Source: Haloarcula salinisoli (lineage in GTDB: Archaea > Halobacteriota > Halobacteria > Halobacteriales > Haloarculaceae). Taken from it: 64,000 bases of DNA. The stretch lies in assembly GCF_019599405.1 (NCBI RefSeq), contig NZ_RKLQ01000001.1, positions 992,001-1,056,000 of the forward strand. The letters are read 5' to 3'. Position numbers and translations under genes: made by a program. This document shows, piece by piece, positions 3,778 to 16,264 of the stretch (the first letter of the stretch is position 1; each line of letters starts with the position of its first letter). Under the pieces are notes generated by a model. The model searched no databases. It saw only the letters and a list, made by a program, of their open reading frames with translations, and was not told the DNA's origin.

Positions 3778-3786
3778 CATAACTAA
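3778..3786 (+). promoter_or_regulatory. Promoter-like 9-mer CATAACTAA
   Basis: It matches the element shared by the glycan locus. It lies 52 nt before ATG 3838 and 17-20 nt before GTG codons (3803 and 3806) that open a 12-13 codon ORF ending at 3844, which overlaps the GTG codon 3841 of the DUF7344 gene as GTGA. The spacing is less typical than at the other sites. Confidence 0.35.
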
Positions 3787-9229: not shown

Positions 9230-10618
9230 GTGACCCCTGATTGGACACGGCGACAGTATCTCTCGCGACTCGGTGGGGTAGCCCTCCTCGGTGCTCTCGC
9301 CGGGTGTCCCGGGACGGACGGTCCCGACGTCGATACGCCCTCCCCTGTCGGCACCCCCGAGACCGACGGCACCGAGCCCGACCGGGACCGCCCCCAGACC
9401 GACGCGTACGACTCTGTCGTCGATATCACCGAGGCCGGCGCTGACGCCGACGGTGAGGAGTCCATCGTCTCGACGCTCGAGGATATCGACACCTCGAACA
9501 CGCTCGTCCGGTTCCCGAAGGGGACCTACTTCATGGACGACACCTGGGGCCCAGAGGGGGCCGAGCGCCTCGGCCTGTACGGGCCCGAGGCGACAATCAC
9601 GACCGTCGAGGAGTTCACGGGACCGCTGTTCGGGCTGGGCACCGACGGGGCGGTCGCCGACCTCTTCGTCGGCGGGTTCACCTTCGACCTGACGCCCGAC
9701 GATACCGGCCCGCGCCCCATCAACGGCCGCGTCACCGACCGGATGCGTATCGATAACGTCACCGTCCGCGGGGAGATGGACCTAGACCAGGACGGGATGC
9801 GGTTCGACGTCGCCGAGAAAGACGGCCACGGCGTCGTCTGGAACCTCCGGATGCCCGACGGCGGCGACCCGGAGTACAAGAACACCGGCTGTTACGTCGG
9901 CGAGAGCCACGTCGGTGAGCTCCGCTTCCAGAACTGCCGCTTCGATGGCTTCCCCGACAACGGCCTCTATGCCTCCCCCGCGAAGGGCCGGGTCAACGTC
10001 GTCGGTGGCCAGTATCGCAACAACGGCGTCGCCAACATCCGGGTCAGCGGGCCCTCGACCGTTCGCGGGGTGGTCGTCCGCTGTGACGAAGCCCGAGATG
10101 GTGTCGAGAACATGCGTGGTATCCGGCTCAGAGGCGGCAGCGACGTCGTCGTCGAGAACAGCCGACTCGTCTTCGATACCGTGACCTCGAGCGACGGGGC
10201 GATAACCTGCGCCGAGTGGCTCGACGCCGCGACCATCCGGAACACCCATATCACTGTCAACGCCGACGACGTCCCCGCGATCTGGGCAAAACCGCCCAAT
10301 GGCAACCGGTCGAACGTACGTGACCATCCCATTCAGATCAAGTCGGTTCGCATCGACGGGTCGGCCAGCAGCGGCGCGGCCGTCCGCATCTCCGAGCGCA
10401 GCGACACCTTGCTCTCGGACCTCTGTATCTGCCAGCACGGAGACGAGCGTGACGGCATCGCCGTCTCCGGTGGCGACGGAACCACCGTCCGGGGCTCCGC
10501 TATTTCTGTCTCGGGCCAGCCGCTGGCCACCGGCGGGCTCTCGGTCAGACGAGACAATCTCTCGCTTGAGTCCACGGCGACCAGTTCGTCCTCGTGTTCC
10601 TGCCCGAAGAACCGCTAG
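9230..10618 (+). CDS. Tat-exported lipoprotein with right-handed parallel beta-helix
   Basis: From GTG 9230 the protein has 462 residues. Residues 6-24 form a Tat signal (TRRQYLSRLGG, hydrophobic stretch, then lipobox LAGC), so it is predicted to be exported folded and lipid-anchored. A Thr/Pro/Asp-rich linker follows. The rest is a pectate-lyase-like beta-helix with repeated short strands and NNGVANIRVSG / VVENSRLVF turns. It is a paralogue of the protein at 12490-14238, and the two flank a phosphodiesterase. It may bind or cut the surface polysaccharide made by this locus, but no catalytic triad was identified. Confidence 0.8.
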   Translation: MTPDWTRRQYLSRLGGVALLGALAGCPGTDGPDVDTPSPVGTPETDGTEPDRDRPQTDAYDSVVDITEAGADADGEESIVSTLEDIDTSNTLVRFPKGTYFMDDTWGPEGAERLGLYGPEATITTVEEFTGPLFGLGTDGAVADLFVGGFTFDLTPDDTGPRPINGRVTDRMRIDNVTVRGEMDLDQDGMRFDVAEKDGHGVVWNLRMPDGGDPEYKNTGCYVGESHVGELRFQNCRFDGFPDNGLYASPAKGRVNVVGGQYRNNGVANIRVSGPSTVRGVVVRCDEARDGVENMRGIRLRGGSDVVVENSRLVFDTVTSSDGAITCAEWLDAATIRNTHITVNADDVPAIWAKPPNGNRSNVRDHPIQIKSVRIDGSASSGAAVRISERSDTLLSDLCICQHGDERDGIAVSGGDGTTVRGSAISVSGQPLATGGLSVRRDNLSLESTATSSSSCSCPKNR

Positions 10619-12225
10619 CGGTCCTCGGAGATGTAGCCCAGGTGAGCGAGCCGGTCGGCGACGTCTTCGCCCGCGCCAGCGGCGCCGTCCATCTCCTCGT
10701 AGGGCGGATACGTCTCGACTGGTGACGGCGAGACGACCGGGAGCGGCTGTCCGTCTAGCCGCTCCGGACGGGCGACCCCCAGCGTCGAGAGCACCGTGGG
10801 TGCGACGTCGAACAGATGCGCATCAGACAGGGACCCACCTGTGTCGACGTCCGGGCCGGTGATAGCTACCAGCCCGTCGCGCTTGTGGTTCCAGGGTTCC
10901 CGCGGTGTCCCGAAATGGTCGCCAAGCAGGGAGCCGTTGAGGAAGTTCTCGAAGCCCCGCGGGACGACTACGACATCTGGTGCTGCCTCCGTGTACGGGC
11001 CATCGAAGACGGCTTCCCGGGGTGCGACGCGCTCGAACACCGGGCGGCCGTCCGGGTCGGTGAGTTCGCGGAGCCGCGCTACGAGCTGGTCGCGAACGGC
11101 ATCGTACTCGGCGGCCGGCACCACGCCCGCTGGCTCCCGACCCGCGAGATTGAGGCGGACGCCCAGCTCGATGCGGTCGCGCATATAGGCCGTCGAGGCG
11201 GGGAAATCGACCTGTTCGGTCCCGGCGCGAACGGCGTCGGTGGGCGCCAGCTTCGCCACCGGCTCGGCCAGTCCCAGCGGTTCGAGCACGCGTTCGATGC
11301 GCTGGCTGGTCAGGCCCAGTCGGGCAAGCATCGCCACGGCGCGCTCGGCCACTCCGGGGTCGGGCGTCCCGCCGCGTTCGCCCTGCTGGAGACGCTTTCT
11401 GGCGATGGCGTCCCAGGACGGCATCCCCTCGCCCTCGGCGGTCGCGCTGACGTTGCCCCACTCGCGCAGTATCTCGTTGAGCCGCACCTCGTAGCCGTCG
11501 TACTCCCCGATGCCGTGGTCGCTGACGACGACGACGGTGTCGGGGTCGGCCGCCGACAGCGCCGTCTCGACGGCGTCGTCGACCGCACCGAACACGCACT
11601 CGATGGCCTCCCGGTCCTCTGGGCGTCGGTGGAAGACGGTGTCAGTCTGCTGGAACTCCAGGAAGCCAAAGTCGGGGTCGAATCGGTCGACCAGGTGGGC
11701 GAAGGCGTCCCCGCGTGAGCGGGCGTGGGACCGAATCGCCGGTAACGCCGCCTTTCCGGGCGTGTCCATCGGGCCGTAGACGCTGTACTCGCCCGTCGCG
11801 TCGCGAACGTCGCCCAGTATCCCCTCCGGATGGCCCGGCGGGTCTTCCGGCGAGATGTAACCCGGGATTACCGCCCCGTCGATGGCTCGTGCCGGCGCTG
11901 TGACGGGGACGTTCACGACGACACTCCCGTAGCCGCGCTGGTCCAGCAGCTCCCAGAGCGCGTGTGCGTGGACGTCCGTCGCGTCGACGACGTCGTGGTC
12001 GTAGCCGTCGAACTTGAGAAAGCCGTACACTCCATGTTTCCCCGGATTGACACCGGTGTACAGCGACGGCCAGGCGCTCGGCGTCCACGGCGGGAGCTGT
12101 GAGGTGAGCGGTCCCGTCGCGCTCCGACCGACCAGGGACTCGATGGTCGGCGCGACACCGCTCTCGATGACCGAATCGAGTACCGGTAACGACACACCGT
12201 CGAGTCCGAGTAACAGAGTCCGCAT
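10615..12225 (-). CDS. Alkaline-phosphatase-superfamily phosphodiesterase/phosphotransferase
   Basis: The 536-residue protein belongs to the type I phosphodiesterase / nucleotide pyrophosphatase group. Visible active-site parts are the first metal Asp9 in LLGLDGVSLP, the nucleophile Thr57 in WPSLYTGVNPGKHG, the metal pair in VVVSDHGIGEYDGY, and a late His in WNHKRDGLVAITGP. There is no signal peptide or membrane helix, so it acts in the cytoplasm. Enzymes of this fold cleave or transfer phosphodiesters, for example on nucleotide sugars or phospho-decorated glycans. Its stop overlaps the preceding convergent gene by 4 nt. The substrate is unknown. Confidence 0.8.
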   Translation of the reverse strand: MRTLLLGLDGVSLPVLDSVIESGVAPTIESLVGRSATGPLTSQLPPWTPSAWPSLYTGVNPGKHGVYGFLKFDGYDHDVVDATDVHAHALWELLDQRGYGSVVVNVPVTAPARAIDGAVIPGYISPEDPPGHPEGILGDVRDATGEYSVYGPMDTPGKAALPAIRSHARSRGDAFAHLVDRFDPDFGFLEFQQTDTVFHRRPEDREAIECVFGAVDDAVETALSAADPDTVVVVSDHGIGEYDGYEVRLNEILREWGNVSATAEGEGMPSWDAIARKRLQQGERGGTPDPGVAERAVAMLARLGLTSQRIERVLEPLGLAEPVAKLAPTDAVRAGTEQVDFPASTAYMRDRIELGVRLNLAGREPAGVVPAAEYDAVRDQLVARLRELTDPDGRPVFERVAPREAVFDGPYTEAAPDVVVVPRGFENFLNGSLLGDHFGTPREPWNHKRDGLVAITGPDVDTGGSLSDAHLFDVAPTVLSTLGVARPERLDGQPLPVVSPSPVETYPPYEEMDGAAGAGEDVADRLAHLGYISEDR

Positions 12226-12489: not shown

Positions 12490-14238
12490 ATGGCAGGCAA
12501 CCCTAAAGACGAGACGAACGGGAAAGCACAGTCTACCAGTCGACGAACGTTCATGCGCCTCGTCGGCGTCGGCGCGGCGGCCACAGCGGTCGGCACAGCC
12601 TCGACTGGCGGTGCCGTCGGGGCCGAAGACACCGTCGACCTCGGGGCGGAAGGGCTCCGTAACGGCGACCTAATCGACCCCTACCTCGAGGAATACTTCA
12701 CCGACGGCAACGAGGTACAGATTCCGGCCGGGGAGTACGACTACACCGGCGATGGGCTGGGCGGGGACAAGGCCGACTGCGCGCTCGTCGGGTCGGCCGA
12801 CGGCGTCACGTTCAACCGCCCGGAGGACCCGGAAGTCGAGGTCCGGCCGACTATCATGGCCACCGATGGGACGGTCCGCATCGAGAACATCACTATCCGC
12901 GGCAAACGCGGTGAGGCCCAGTCTCGCTGGCGTGTCGGTGCCGAGGAGGGCGCGACGATGGAAGTCGTCAACGTGAACGTCCCCGACGGCACCATCGACG
13001 GGTCGGACTCGACGGGGCTGTACGCGGGGACGGACCACGCCGGGACCCTCCACTGCAAGGCCTGTTACTTCGAACAGATGGGGAACGTCGCGATGTACGT
13101 CTCGGACGCCTACACCGGCGGGGACGGTCAAGTCGTGGTCGAGGACTGTGTCTTCCGCAACATCAACTCCTCGATGCTGCGCTTCGCGCCGACCGATAGC
13201 GTCGTCCGGGGCTGTTACTTCGAGGGGACAGAGGAACCGCCGTCGGACCACACCGGCGGCACGACGCTCCGAGGTATCAAGGTCGACGACGCCGGCACCG
13301 GCGCGCTCATCGAAGACTGTGACTTCTACTTCACGCGCGGGAGCAACCCCATCCGACTCCACTACCGCGGCGAGGACGGGTCGGGCACCATCCGTAACGT
13401 TCGCATCTACAACGACGGCGACAGCGATGCAATCCAGCAAGACTGGGACACGGAGGGGAGCTGGGCCGGCGAGGCAATCCACCTCACCGGTAGCGGGAAC
13501 CTCGACGTCCCCGAGCACTTCGAGACGGTCACCGGCGACGGTGCAGAGGCGCCAAACACCGATTACAGTGTCTGGACCCCGGTCGATGGCGAGTCCAGCG
13601 GCGGCAGTGAAACCGACGCGGCGCCGGTCGACGGGTCAGCACCCCAGGCAAGCGACCTCGTCATCCGGGCGAGTCCGGACAATCCCGACACCAACTGTGA
13701 CGTGACCTTCACCGCGACAGAGGAGATACAGTTCGGCGACGAGGCCGAGCCCGGCACCGACCGTATCACCGAGAACGACGACGGGAGCTACACGGCGACA
13801 AGCGTCGAGATGAACCCCGACGCGGTCGACTCGTATCTGGTCTCGGGGACCATCACGGCCTTCACGGTCACCGAGGGGTACGAGGTCAGCGTGACCCGCG
13901 ACGGCGAGTCGGTGACCCTCGATGACCTGGTCGACGACCAGGACCGGGGGAACGGCGAGGACACCGGTCCCGCGTCGCTCCCGAATCGCATCGAAATCGA
14001 CGGCACCGGCGACGCCGAGGAGAGCGCCTACTACGACTTCGCTGTCACTGGGAATCTCACGCTCGACGAGGGGCGGACTGTCGTCGGGAGCGGCGAGACG
14101 CTGTGGTTGACCGGCGATATCAGCGACGGGAAGGTAAGCGGCCACGTCCGCAACGGCGTGGACGCGTTCTTCTACAGTGGCACCCTGAAACGCATCGAAA
14201 TCGACGGCGACGCCGACGTCAACGTCTTCCACGGGTGA
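12490..14238 (+). CDS. Tat-exported right-handed beta-helix protein
   Basis: The 582-residue protein opens with a Tat signal (SRRTFMRLVG at residues 18-27, hydrophobic core to about residue 45, likely cleavage near VGAED). Residues 50-360 are a right-handed beta-helix with Cys-containing rungs (CKACYFEQ, EDCVFRNI, RGCYFEG, EDCDFYFTR). A linker rich in Ser, Gly and Asp and two beta-rich C-terminal modules follow, the last with YYDFAVTG and GHVRNGVDAFFYSG. It is a larger paralogue of 9230-10618. It is predicted to be secreted and may act on, or bind to, the surface glycan. No catalytic residues could be assigned. Confidence 0.8.
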   Translation: MAGNPKDETNGKAQSTSRRTFMRLVGVGAAATAVGTASTGGAVGAEDTVDLGAEGLRNGDLIDPYLEEYFTDGNEVQIPAGEYDYTGDGLGGDKADCALVGSADGVTFNRPEDPEVEVRPTIMATDGTVRIENITIRGKRGEAQSRWRVGAEEGATMEVVNVNVPDGTIDGSDSTGLYAGTDHAGTLHCKACYFEQMGNVAMYVSDAYTGGDGQVVVEDCVFRNINSSMLRFAPTDSVVRGCYFEGTEEPPSDHTGGTTLRGIKVDDAGTGALIEDCDFYFTRGSNPIRLHYRGEDGSGTIRNVRIYNDGDSDAIQQDWDTEGSWAGEAIHLTGSGNLDVPEHFETVTGDGAEAPNTDYSVWTPVDGESSGGSETDAAPVDGSAPQASDLVIRASPDNPDTNCDVTFTATEEIQFGDEAEPGTDRITENDDGSYTATSVEMNPDAVDSYLVSGTITAFTVTEGYEVSVTRDGESVTLDDLVDDQDRGNGEDTGPASLPNRIEIDGTGDAEESAYYDFAVTGNLTLDEGRTVVGSGETLWLTGDISDGKVSGHVRNGVDAFFYSGTLKRIEIDGDADVNVFHG

Positions 14239-14240
14239 CT

Positions 14241-14441
14241 ATGTTCTCGAATTCAGAGTGGGACCTGGTTCCCGAAGACCCCGACCCACACGAGAACCTC
14301 GGCTACGAACTCGAGGAGCTGACGGTCATCCGTTCCGAGACGAACGACCAGTACGTCTTCCTGCCGGCGGAGGAGTCACACCTGCTGGAGGAGGCGTTCA
14401 TCGTCGCTACGGAGGACGCGCTCGTCGAACTGAAACAGTAG
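14241..14441 (+). CDS. Small acidic haloarchaeal protein
   Basis: ATG 14241 lies 2 nt after the stop of the beta-helix gene and opens 66 residues that are strongly acidic and end ATEDALVELKQ. The tight spacing suggests co-transcription. Composition and codon usage are like real haloarchaeal genes. There is no membrane segment or Cys motif. It resembles small uncharacterised haloarchaeal proteins of this size; I assign no function. Confidence 0.65.
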   Translation: MFSNSEWDLVPEDPDPHENLGYELEELTVIRSETNDQYVFLPAEESHLLEEAFIVATEDALVELKQ

Positions 14442-14447
14442 GAAACT

Positions 14448-14456
14448 GATAACTAA
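14448..14456 (+). promoter_or_regulatory. Promoter-like 9-mer GATAACTAA
   Basis: A member of the locus element lying 52 nt before the BKACE-like gene, the same distance as the CATAACTAA at 3778-3786 from its gene. Confidence 0.35.
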
Positions 14457-14507: not shown

Positions 14508-15380
14508 ATGACCTACCGTGAGTACATGCGCGGCGACGAGGTGACTCTCGGCGTCGCTCCGACCGGCTATCGCTACTCGACTGACGTGAACGACGCTCTC
14601 CCGGTCGAGCCCGAATCAGTCGCGACACAGGTGTACGAGTCGATGGCGCTCGGGGCCACTGTCACAGTCCTCCACGGTCGTGACGCCGACGGGAACCCCG
14701 ACCCGACCCGTCTGCCCGCCTTCGGTCGGGCGGTCCGGGAGCTGTGTGGGGACGACGTCTTGCTCGAGTACGCCGCCGAACCGGACGCACCCCTCGGGGA
14801 TTTCCTCGACGCGCTCGACGGGGAGCCGGCCCCCGACCTCGCCACCGTCCGGCTGGGTCCCACCCAGACGGGCTACCGGCGGGTTTCGGAGACGAGCCGC
14901 CGCGACACGGAGCAGTTGGTCGACGCGCTGACCGACCGGGGCATCACCCCGAACGTGCTCGTGACCGGCGGCGCCGACTGCCACGAACTCGCCCGGCTGC
15001 GCGAGCAGGCAGTCCTCCCCGACCCGCCCGTGGTGACGGTTCTGCTGGGTGCGCCCAGTGGCGCTGTCGGGACGCCGCTGTCCCTGCTTTCGGTCCTCGA
15101 CGCGGTTCCCGACGGCGCACACGTCTTCGTCCGCGCGACCGGCCCCAACCAGTACCCGCTGACGACGCTCGCCTTCTTCATGGGTGCGCACCCGATGGTC
15201 GGCATGGCGGACAACCTCTTTTTCGACCCCGACACGCCGGTCGAGCGCAACGCCCAGCTCGTGCGGACGGTCGCCCAGCTGGCACAGCGTTCGCTGCGTT
15301 CGCTCGCCGATATCGGGGCTGCCAGCCGTCGCCTGACACTCCCCCCGGCCGTCGCCGAGGGGAACGACGTCGAAGCGTAA
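14508..15380 (+). CDS. BKACE (DUF849)-like protein lacking metal ligands
   Basis: The 290-residue protein follows the beta-keto acid cleavage enzyme fold: an N-terminal block ending ALGATVTVLHGRDADG, a middle VLLGAPSGAVGTPLS, then ATGPNQYPLTTLAFFMGAHPMVGMADN and the C-terminal NAQLVRTVAQLAQRSLRSLADI. Canonical members bind a divalent metal through HxH and a late Glu, and use an Arg near it. Here the first His is Val54 (only His56 remains), the Glu is Ala234 and the Arg is Met230, while the neighbouring Asp235 stays. Condensing a beta-keto acid with acetyl-CoA is therefore unlikely. It precedes the nucleotidyltransferase gene in the glycan locus; its present role is unknown. Confidence 0.7.
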   Translation: MTYREYMRGDEVTLGVAPTGYRYSTDVNDALPVEPESVATQVYESMALGATVTVLHGRDADGNPDPTRLPAFGRAVRELCGDDVLLEYAAEPDAPLGDFLDALDGEPAPDLATVRLGPTQTGYRRVSETSRRDTEQLVDALTDRGITPNVLVTGGADCHELARLREQAVLPDPPVVTVLLGAPSGAVGTPLSLLSVLDAVPDGAHVFVRATGPNQYPLTTLAFFMGAHPMVGMADNLFFDPDTPVERNAQLVRTVAQLAQRSLRSLADIGAASRRLTLPPAVAEGNDVEA

Positions 15381-15472
15381 GGGCGACCAAGCCGTCAAAA
15401 GTGGTGTTAACGGCCACGAAACCGTCGAAGGCGGTGTATACCTTTCCTTGCGGGCATCGCGCTCCGGATACG

Positions 15473-16264
15473 ATGGACGCAGTGATACTCGCGGCCGGAC
15501 AGGGGACTCGACTCCGCCCACTCACCGACGACAAGCCAAAAGGGATGGTCGAAGTGGACGGCAAACCGATACTCACGCACTGTTTCGACCAGCTCATCGA
15601 GCTGGGCGCCGACGAGCTGTACGTCGTCGTGGGCTACAAGAAACAGAACATCATCAACTACTACGAGGACGAGTACCAGGGCGTCCCGATAACGTACACG
15701 CACCAGCGCGAACAGAACGGGCTGGCCCACGCCCTGCTGACGGTCGAGGAACACATCGACGACGACTTCATGCTGATGCTGGGGGACAACATCTTCCAGG
15801 CGAACCTCAGCGACGTGGTCAACCGCCAGCAGGAGCAGCGGGCCGACGCCGCCTTCCTCGTCGAGGAGGTCCCCTGGGACGAAGCCAGCCGCTACGGCGT
15901 CTGTGACACGAACAAGTACGGCGAGATAACGGAGGTCATCGAGAAGCCCGAGGAGCCGCCGTCGAACCTCGTGATGACCGGATTCTACACGTTCACGCCC
16001 GCTATCTTCCACGCCTGCCAGCTCGTCCAGCCCTCGAACCGGGGCGAGTACGAGATAAGCGACGCCATCGACCTGCTCTTGCACTCCGGGCGAACCATCG
16101 ACGCCATCCGGATGAACGGCTGGCGAAACGACATCGGCTATCCCGAGGACCGCGACGAGGCCGAACGTCGGCTCCAGGATGAGACCGAGAAAGCCCAGAC
16201 CGAGGAAGCCCAGACCGAGGAGGCTGCGGTCGAGGACGCCGCGTCCGTTCCGTCCTCGGAGTAA
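15473..16264 (+). CDS. Sugar-1-phosphate nucleotidyltransferase (AglF/RmlA type)
   Basis: The 263-residue enzyme couples a sugar 1-phosphate to a nucleoside triphosphate. Motifs are VILAAGQGTRLRPLTDDKPKGM at the N terminus with the pyrophosphorylase Gly-rich loop, GRD-type metal site in LMLGDNIF, VEEVPWDEASRYGV, and VIEKPEEPPS. Length fits the haloarchaeal glucose-1-phosphate uridylyltransferase AglF group, but dTTP use cannot be excluded. I chose ATG 15473 because the frame upstream lies inside the BKACE-like gene. The last 35 residues are a Glu/Ala/Thr tail containing a tandem TEEAQTEEA repeat. It probably supplies the activated sugar for the locus. Confidence 0.85.
   Translation: MDAVILAAGQGTRLRPLTDDKPKGMVEVDGKPILTHCFDQLIELGADELYVVVGYKKQNIINYYEDEYQGVPITYTHQREQNGLAHALLTVEEHIDDDFMLMLGDNIFQANLSDVVNRQQEQRADAAFLVEEVPWDEASRYGVCDTNKYGEITEVIEKPEEPPSNLVMTGFYTFTPAIFHACQLVQPSNRGEYEISDAIDLLLHSGRTIDAIRMNGWRNDIGYPEDRDEAERRLQDETEKAQTEEAQTEEAAVEDAASVPSSE

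Follow-up and report, generated by a model that had tools for sequence, protein, structure and literature searches.

A BKACE-fold protein that has very probably lost BKACE chemistry, encoded between s66 and aglF in Haloarcula

A well-scoring member of the DUF849 family of beta-keto acid cleavage enzymes (BKACEs), encoded in a genome of the genus Haloarcula, is very probably incapable of BKACE chemistry. The gene lies in the window, by which we mean the whole 64,000-nucleotide stretch of DNA analysed, and the source genome (4.03 Mb) has Haloarcula rara SHR3 as its nearest named relative found. At about even confidence we consider the product a BKACE-fold pseudoenzyme or repurposed protein that would be accessory to glycan assembly, its ligand and function both being putative. 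The gene is as follows.

14508..15380, plus strand: BKACE-fold (DUF849) protein without the BKACE active site, 290 aa (PF05853, AlphaFold2 and Foldseek)

Several lines of evidence place this protein in the family. Profile search scores the ORF at 127.9 bits against PF05853 (BKACE/DUF849; cut-off 24.8), and phmmer aligns it to Kce (2y7d) at E=6e-17. The AlphaFold2 model, computed from 36 related sequences, has a mean pLDDT of 87.3 and a pTM of 0.88; its first-ranked Foldseek match in the PDB is Kce 2y7e (TM 0.86/0.90, 26% identity, E 3e-18), and ranks 2-28 are further Kce or DUF849-family structures. The homology to BKACEs that an earlier note had proposed from the letters of the sequence is thus borne out by both profile score and predicted fold. 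The NCBIfam equivalog cut-offs for individual BKACEs are not reached, with scores of 91.9 versus 382 for Kce and 64.2 versus 350 for 3-oxoadipate:acetyl-CoA acetyltransferase, and PF05853 gives 128 bits to the window protein as against 294 to the canonical haloarchaeal copy L049. A phage origin of the gene was considered and rejected, no PHROG match being present.

In Kce, His46, His48 and Glu230 are what we take to be the Zn ligands, and Arg226 is presumably a further active-site residue (for Kce, the chain number is the literature number + 6). The window protein shares with Kce the TIM-barrel, ~26% identity over the full length, and the equivalents of the second His ligand (His48/His56) and of Asp231 (Asp235), whereas the phmmer alignment pairs His46, Ser82 and Glu143 of Kce with Val54, Ala89 and Leu151, and Arg226 and Glu230 with Met230 and Ala234. 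The Zn triad (Val54, His56, Ala234) is therefore incomplete, the base position is Leu151 and the Arg position Met230. The codons concerned, with the state of each position in the clade of orthologues described below, are these.

14667..14669, plus strand: codon GTC, Val54 (position of the presumed Zn ligand His46 of Kce); His in 11/13 clade members and 36/36 canonical relatives
14673..14675, plus strand: codon CAC, His56 (position of the presumed Zn ligand His48 of Kce); retained in all
14958..14960, plus strand: codon CTC, Leu151 (catalytic base position, Glu143 of Kce and Glu171 of BKACE15); Leu in 12/13 and Val in 1/13 clade members
15195..15197, plus strand: codon ATG, Met230 (position of Arg226 of Kce); within the clade, Arg survives only in L015 and L016
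15207..15209, plus strand: codon GCG, Ala234 (position of the presumed Zn ligand Glu230 of Kce); Ala in 4 species, Gly in L015, Glu in 8

The earlier note had named Val54, Ala234 and Met230, and the Kce alignment assigns all three as it did; since orthologues 82-92% identical to the window protein align gap-free across the substituted sites, the substitutions are not an alignment artefact. The most telling change is one it did not list, the loss of the catalytic base. Glu143 of Kce corresponds, by alignment via a canonical haloarchaeal protein, to Glu171 of BKACE15 from Paracoccus denitrificans (8rio, 8rip, 9hnf), which has fold and family in common with the window protein but binds one Zn per active site (PMC11961710). 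Glu171 is the proposed catalytic base of BKACE15, and its replacement by Leu (E171L) abolishes activity (PMC11961710); Arg254, the equivalent of Kce Arg226, was proposed as the base in earlier work, according to the same report. The window protein has the equivalent of neither residue. Because the base is lost, and the published Glu to Leu change at that position abolishes BKACE activity, the window protein is very probably no longer a BKACE, in agreement with the earlier suggestion that it does something else. Among 36 canonical relatives, Glu is found at the Kce 143 position in 35, and 35/36 carry the full series His-His-Glu-Arg-Glu-Asp at Kce positions 46/48/143/226/230/231, so that haloarchaeal BKACEs at large do not share the three substitutions.

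Twelve intact orthologues were found besides the window gene, all in Haloarcula and 50-92% identical, the H. rara protein at 92%. All 13 fall in one clade (support 100/100) whose stem measures 1.36 changes per site. In two overlapping, evenly drawn samples, of 392 genomes at order level and 391 at class level, no member from outside Haloarcula exceeded 38% identity. At the six Kce positions just given, the window protein reads V-H-L-M-A-D, its three nearest orthologues H-H-L-(M/V)-A-D, seven others H-H-L-(M/V/T)-E-D, L016 H-H-L-R-E-D and L015 Q-H-V-R-G-D. The catalytic base is absent from 13/13 members and the Arg from 11/13, while all three metal ligands are retained in 8/13. Glu234 has become Ala in four sister species, including the window genome, and Gly in G021, and His54 is missing only in the window genome and G021. 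Parsimony on the tree requires one change at Arg230, two at Glu234 and two at His54, which points to a stepwise loss: absence of the base is shared by all, the Arg was lost a single time, and the metal ligands disappeared afterwards, independently in two lineages. Since eight of the 13 retain every ligand, the series is graded, with the metal-less state as its endpoint, and the trait that unites the clade is the loss of the base Glu143 (to Leu or Val) with a remodelled pocket. Loss of metal ligands, on which the earlier note built, came late and patchily and does not define the clade. Of the substitutions for which it proposed a survey of orthologues, Ala234 is found in four species; Val54 is private to the window genome. 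Intact-ligand orthologues, which it had regarded as a possible sign of error, exist in eight cases, but Ala234 stands. Sequencing or alignment error as the source of Ala234 and of the lost base was rejected, given the four species sharing Ala and the clade-wide absence of the base. At Val54 H. rara has His, and several bases across codons 53-54 distinguish the window genome from its nearest relative; this substitution, private to one genome, may reflect a sequencing error.

The same residues bear on whether the protein could still act as a BKACE, or as some related Zn enzyme, with metal and base positioned by other residues. His56, His228 and Asp235 are invariant, eight orthologues have the full triad, and members of the BKACE family are promiscuous (PMC4922564). 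Such residual activity is nonetheless very improbable: the base is Leu or Val in 13/13, BKACE15 with Leu at the matching position is inactive (PMC11961710), and in the Ala234 species the list of changed sites shows neither a gained His or Cys nor a nearby Glu to go with the ligand loss.

The neighbours of the gene and the upstream element are as follows.

14241..14441, plus strand: s66, 66-aa haloarchaeal small protein, directly upstream of the BKACE-fold gene (gap 66 bp)
14449..14456, plus strand: ATAACTAA element in the gap between s66 and the BKACE-fold gene, from the gap alignment of orthologues; 59 nt before ATG 14508
15473..16264, plus strand: AglF-type sugar-1-phosphate uridylyltransferase, the next gene on the same strand (NF041313 (AglF), 439.7 bits, cut-off 400)

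AglF is the UDP-glucose pyrophosphorylase of Haloferax N-glycosylation; here it is a neighbour, by NCBIfam an AglF equivalog, and not a homologue of the BKACE-fold protein. The earlier note had stressed the place of the gene before a sugar nucleotidyltransferase, and aglF does lie downstream in 12/14 loci (directly next in 10, past two opposite-strand genes in 2); the constant neighbour, however, is s66, directly upstream in 14/14 Haloarcula loci compared, even where other genes differ. The wider surface-glycan locus, putatively for an N-glycan or an exopolysaccharide, encodes glycosyltransferases, PseC-like aminotransferases, a formyltransferase, nucleotide-sugar dehydrogenases, a flippase, deacetylases and a hexapeptide transferase. 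s66 matches no Pfam or NCBIfam model, and its structure model (pTM 0.48) is too weak for a fold search; homologues occur in 74/146 genomes of the family, nearly always in single copy. Across haloarchaea s66 is often near surface-glycan genes, adjoining aglF, and its alignment-invariant columns are W7, P14, Y22, P42 and F53 (alignment numbering; W7 is not at the start). In Haloarcula genomes missing the BKACE-fold gene, and in genus g7, s66 and aglF stand next to each other without a BKACE gene, and the BKACE is therefore an optional passenger or accessory in the locus. A BKACE whose active site is complete occupies the slot behind s66 in genus g10 and in family f7; the slot copy that has lost its site is that of Haloarcula. 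The conserved-style promoter element mentioned in the earlier note is recovered in the orthologues as ATAACTAA, which is probably a basal promoter (TATA-like) element and occurs twice in the window versus 0.14 expected. The other copy, at 3779-3786, likewise precedes an ATG by 59 nt (3838, a probable small regulator). A second element, GAAGGC-N5-ATACCTTT at 15427-15445, lies upstream of aglF, is kept among nearer orthologues and is a probable aglF promoter.

The successive losses of catalytic and metal-site residues and the long branches could also be those of a decaying duplicate, retained only by time and locus structure, and one orthologue, in G024 (L048:8056-8867), is split into three reading-frame pieces, either as a pseudogene or through assembly errors. 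Among close orthologue pairs, however, NG86 dN/dS is 0.17-0.28 (L004-L005 0.21, L009-L010 0.17, L011-L013 0.17), which indicates that the BKACE-fold gene is not decaying and is under purifying selection; this is close to the values of 0.08-0.26 for neighbouring genes between the window genome and H. rara. With intact ORFs in 13 genomes at 50-92% identity, a conserved upstream element and a confidently predicted fold as well, decay is improbable.

Selection thus maintains a protein from which the original chemistry has very probably gone, and the distribution of conserved positions bears on what it may do. Clade-invariant sites make up 32/80 barrel-top versus 42/190 other positions (p=0.004). 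In the remodelled pocket, Tyr21, Tyr88, Asn149, Asp157 and Asn214 are clade-invariant, and Arg22 and Arg115 are present in 12/13. At eighteen positions the clade and the canonical relatives each have a single residue, but not the same one; seven of these lie on the open face of the barrel, Tyr21, Arg115 and Asn214 among them. The reading we favor, held at roughly even odds of being right, is that the protein serves glycan assembly in a binding or regulatory role that needs no metal. The earlier suggestion of a repurposed enzyme or a binding protein in surface-glycan synthesis is likewise putative. A haloarchaeal BKACE paralogue between s66 and aglF would have stopped being a BKACE and become a pseudoenzyme scaffold using the remodelled pocket, which may hold an anionic metabolite; the scaffold would then assist or regulate adjoining glycan steps, most plausibly those of AglF or s66, its retained neighbours. 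Retention of the predicted fold with clade-wide loss of the base, the E171L precedent (PMC11961710), the single clade on its long stem, the repeated loss of Glu234 and His54, purifying selection, the more conserved open barrel face, and the conserved position beside s66 and usually aglF are consistent with such a scaffold. Against it, metal may matter in the eight orthologues with a complete His-x-His...Glu triad, the link to s66 and aglF might simply reflect hitchhiking within a conserved locus, and the enrichment of pocket sites is modest and holds, more weakly, for canonical BKACEs too (p=0.04).

The polar residues conserved specifically in the clade may just as well form a new catalytic set. 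A new metal-independent enzyme on the BKACE barrel, in which these residues with His56, His228 and Asp235 act on a sugar or keto-acid glycan intermediate, is rather less likely than the scaffold. It would account for the 18 switched positions and for purifying selection, and cis-epoxysuccinate hydrolases have the same fold (phmmer and Foldseek matches). There is also precedent for family members without BKACE activity: in the part of PMC4922564 that restates Bastard 2014, DUF849 groups G6 and G7 carry the description "not BKACE", and decarboxylation activity is noted for one such group. With such members on record there, the Haloarcula protein is not a new kind of protein. What weighs against a new enzyme is that the barrel face shows no enrichment in switched positions (p=0.42) and that metal ligands were lost within the clade with no obvious substitute.

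The canonical relatives provide a further comparison for the scaffold reading that we favor. A gene for a Cys-rich protein of 70-80 aa lies within 1.5 kb of 28/29 canonical non-catabolic BKACE genes and 2.7 kb from the remaining one; with the exact L049 protein and one query with an approximate tail as search queries, it was found at 0/7 catabolic-branch loci and 0/13 clade loci ("catabolic branch" labels the seven-row group L001, L022, L025 and L027-L030, whose function is putative). The same-slot canonical BKACEs (G074, G077, G080; L017-L019) resemble the Haloarcula gene in lying downstream of s66 in a glycan locus, but their His-His-Glu-Arg-Glu-Asp site is complete and a Cys-rich 70-aa gene adjoins them. 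By gene content, then, the Haloarcula clade has lost the Cys-rich partner, which counts in favor of the scaffold reading. The Cys-rich protein (starting like MTCPYLEYR; L052:8185-8409, L049:8044-8256, L106:11784-12032 and others) often has a GNAT acetyltransferase gene alongside, reaches the cut-off of no curated family and matches DUF7140 weakly; BKACE and Cys-rich gene together look like an undescribed haloarchaeal module. In the tree the clade groups with non-catabolic canonical BKACEs and not with the catabolic branch (100/100). Its closest relatives by score are the same-slot g10 proteins, at 34-36% identity, and the best tree places them as its sister with nil support (17/0); a topology joining the clade, the wider same-slot proteins and its own canonical paralogue as one clade is not rejected (p-AU 0.09). 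With sister support nil, descent from the slot-mate BKACE of a neighbouring genus is only compatible with these data.

That canonical paralogue, paired with a Cys-rich gene and a GNAT gene at C2:712 kb of the window genome and present in seven other clade-bearing Haloarcula genomes, raises the alternative of an inactive subunit that pairs with this paralogue and tunes it, in the manner of enzyme-pseudoenzyme heteromers; BKACE15 itself assembles as a homotetramer (PMC11961710). Such pairing is most unlikely, since in the 99%-complete genome G015 the degenerate copy is the sole BKACE match, and a partner paralogue is therefore not required.

More broadly, one may entertain, tentatively, that an enzyme or sensor of BKACE fold, independent of metal and specific for a new ligand, evolved in one genus inside the aglF locus, with the steps of its dismantling (base first, Arg next, metal ligands last) preserved in living species; if so, the order of catalytic dismantling and of the gain of a role would be directly readable. 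The intact site of the neighbouring genus, the base-less but metal-competent proteins and the base-less, metal-less ones form a natural series in which the order of enzyme retirement is testable. A role in glycan assembly, if true, would make the protein an unrecognised accessory in haloarchaeal surface-sugar loci. In the literature searched, beta-keto acid cleavage and haloarchaea are co-mentioned nowhere, and the same holds for BKACE and pseudoenzyme.

Farther upstream in the window, two beta-helix-like proteins are encoded at 9230-10618 and 12490-14238, the second with a weak Tat-signal match, and a phosphodiesterase-type gene lies between them on the other strand (10615-12225); several haloarchaeal genera keep the same gene order.
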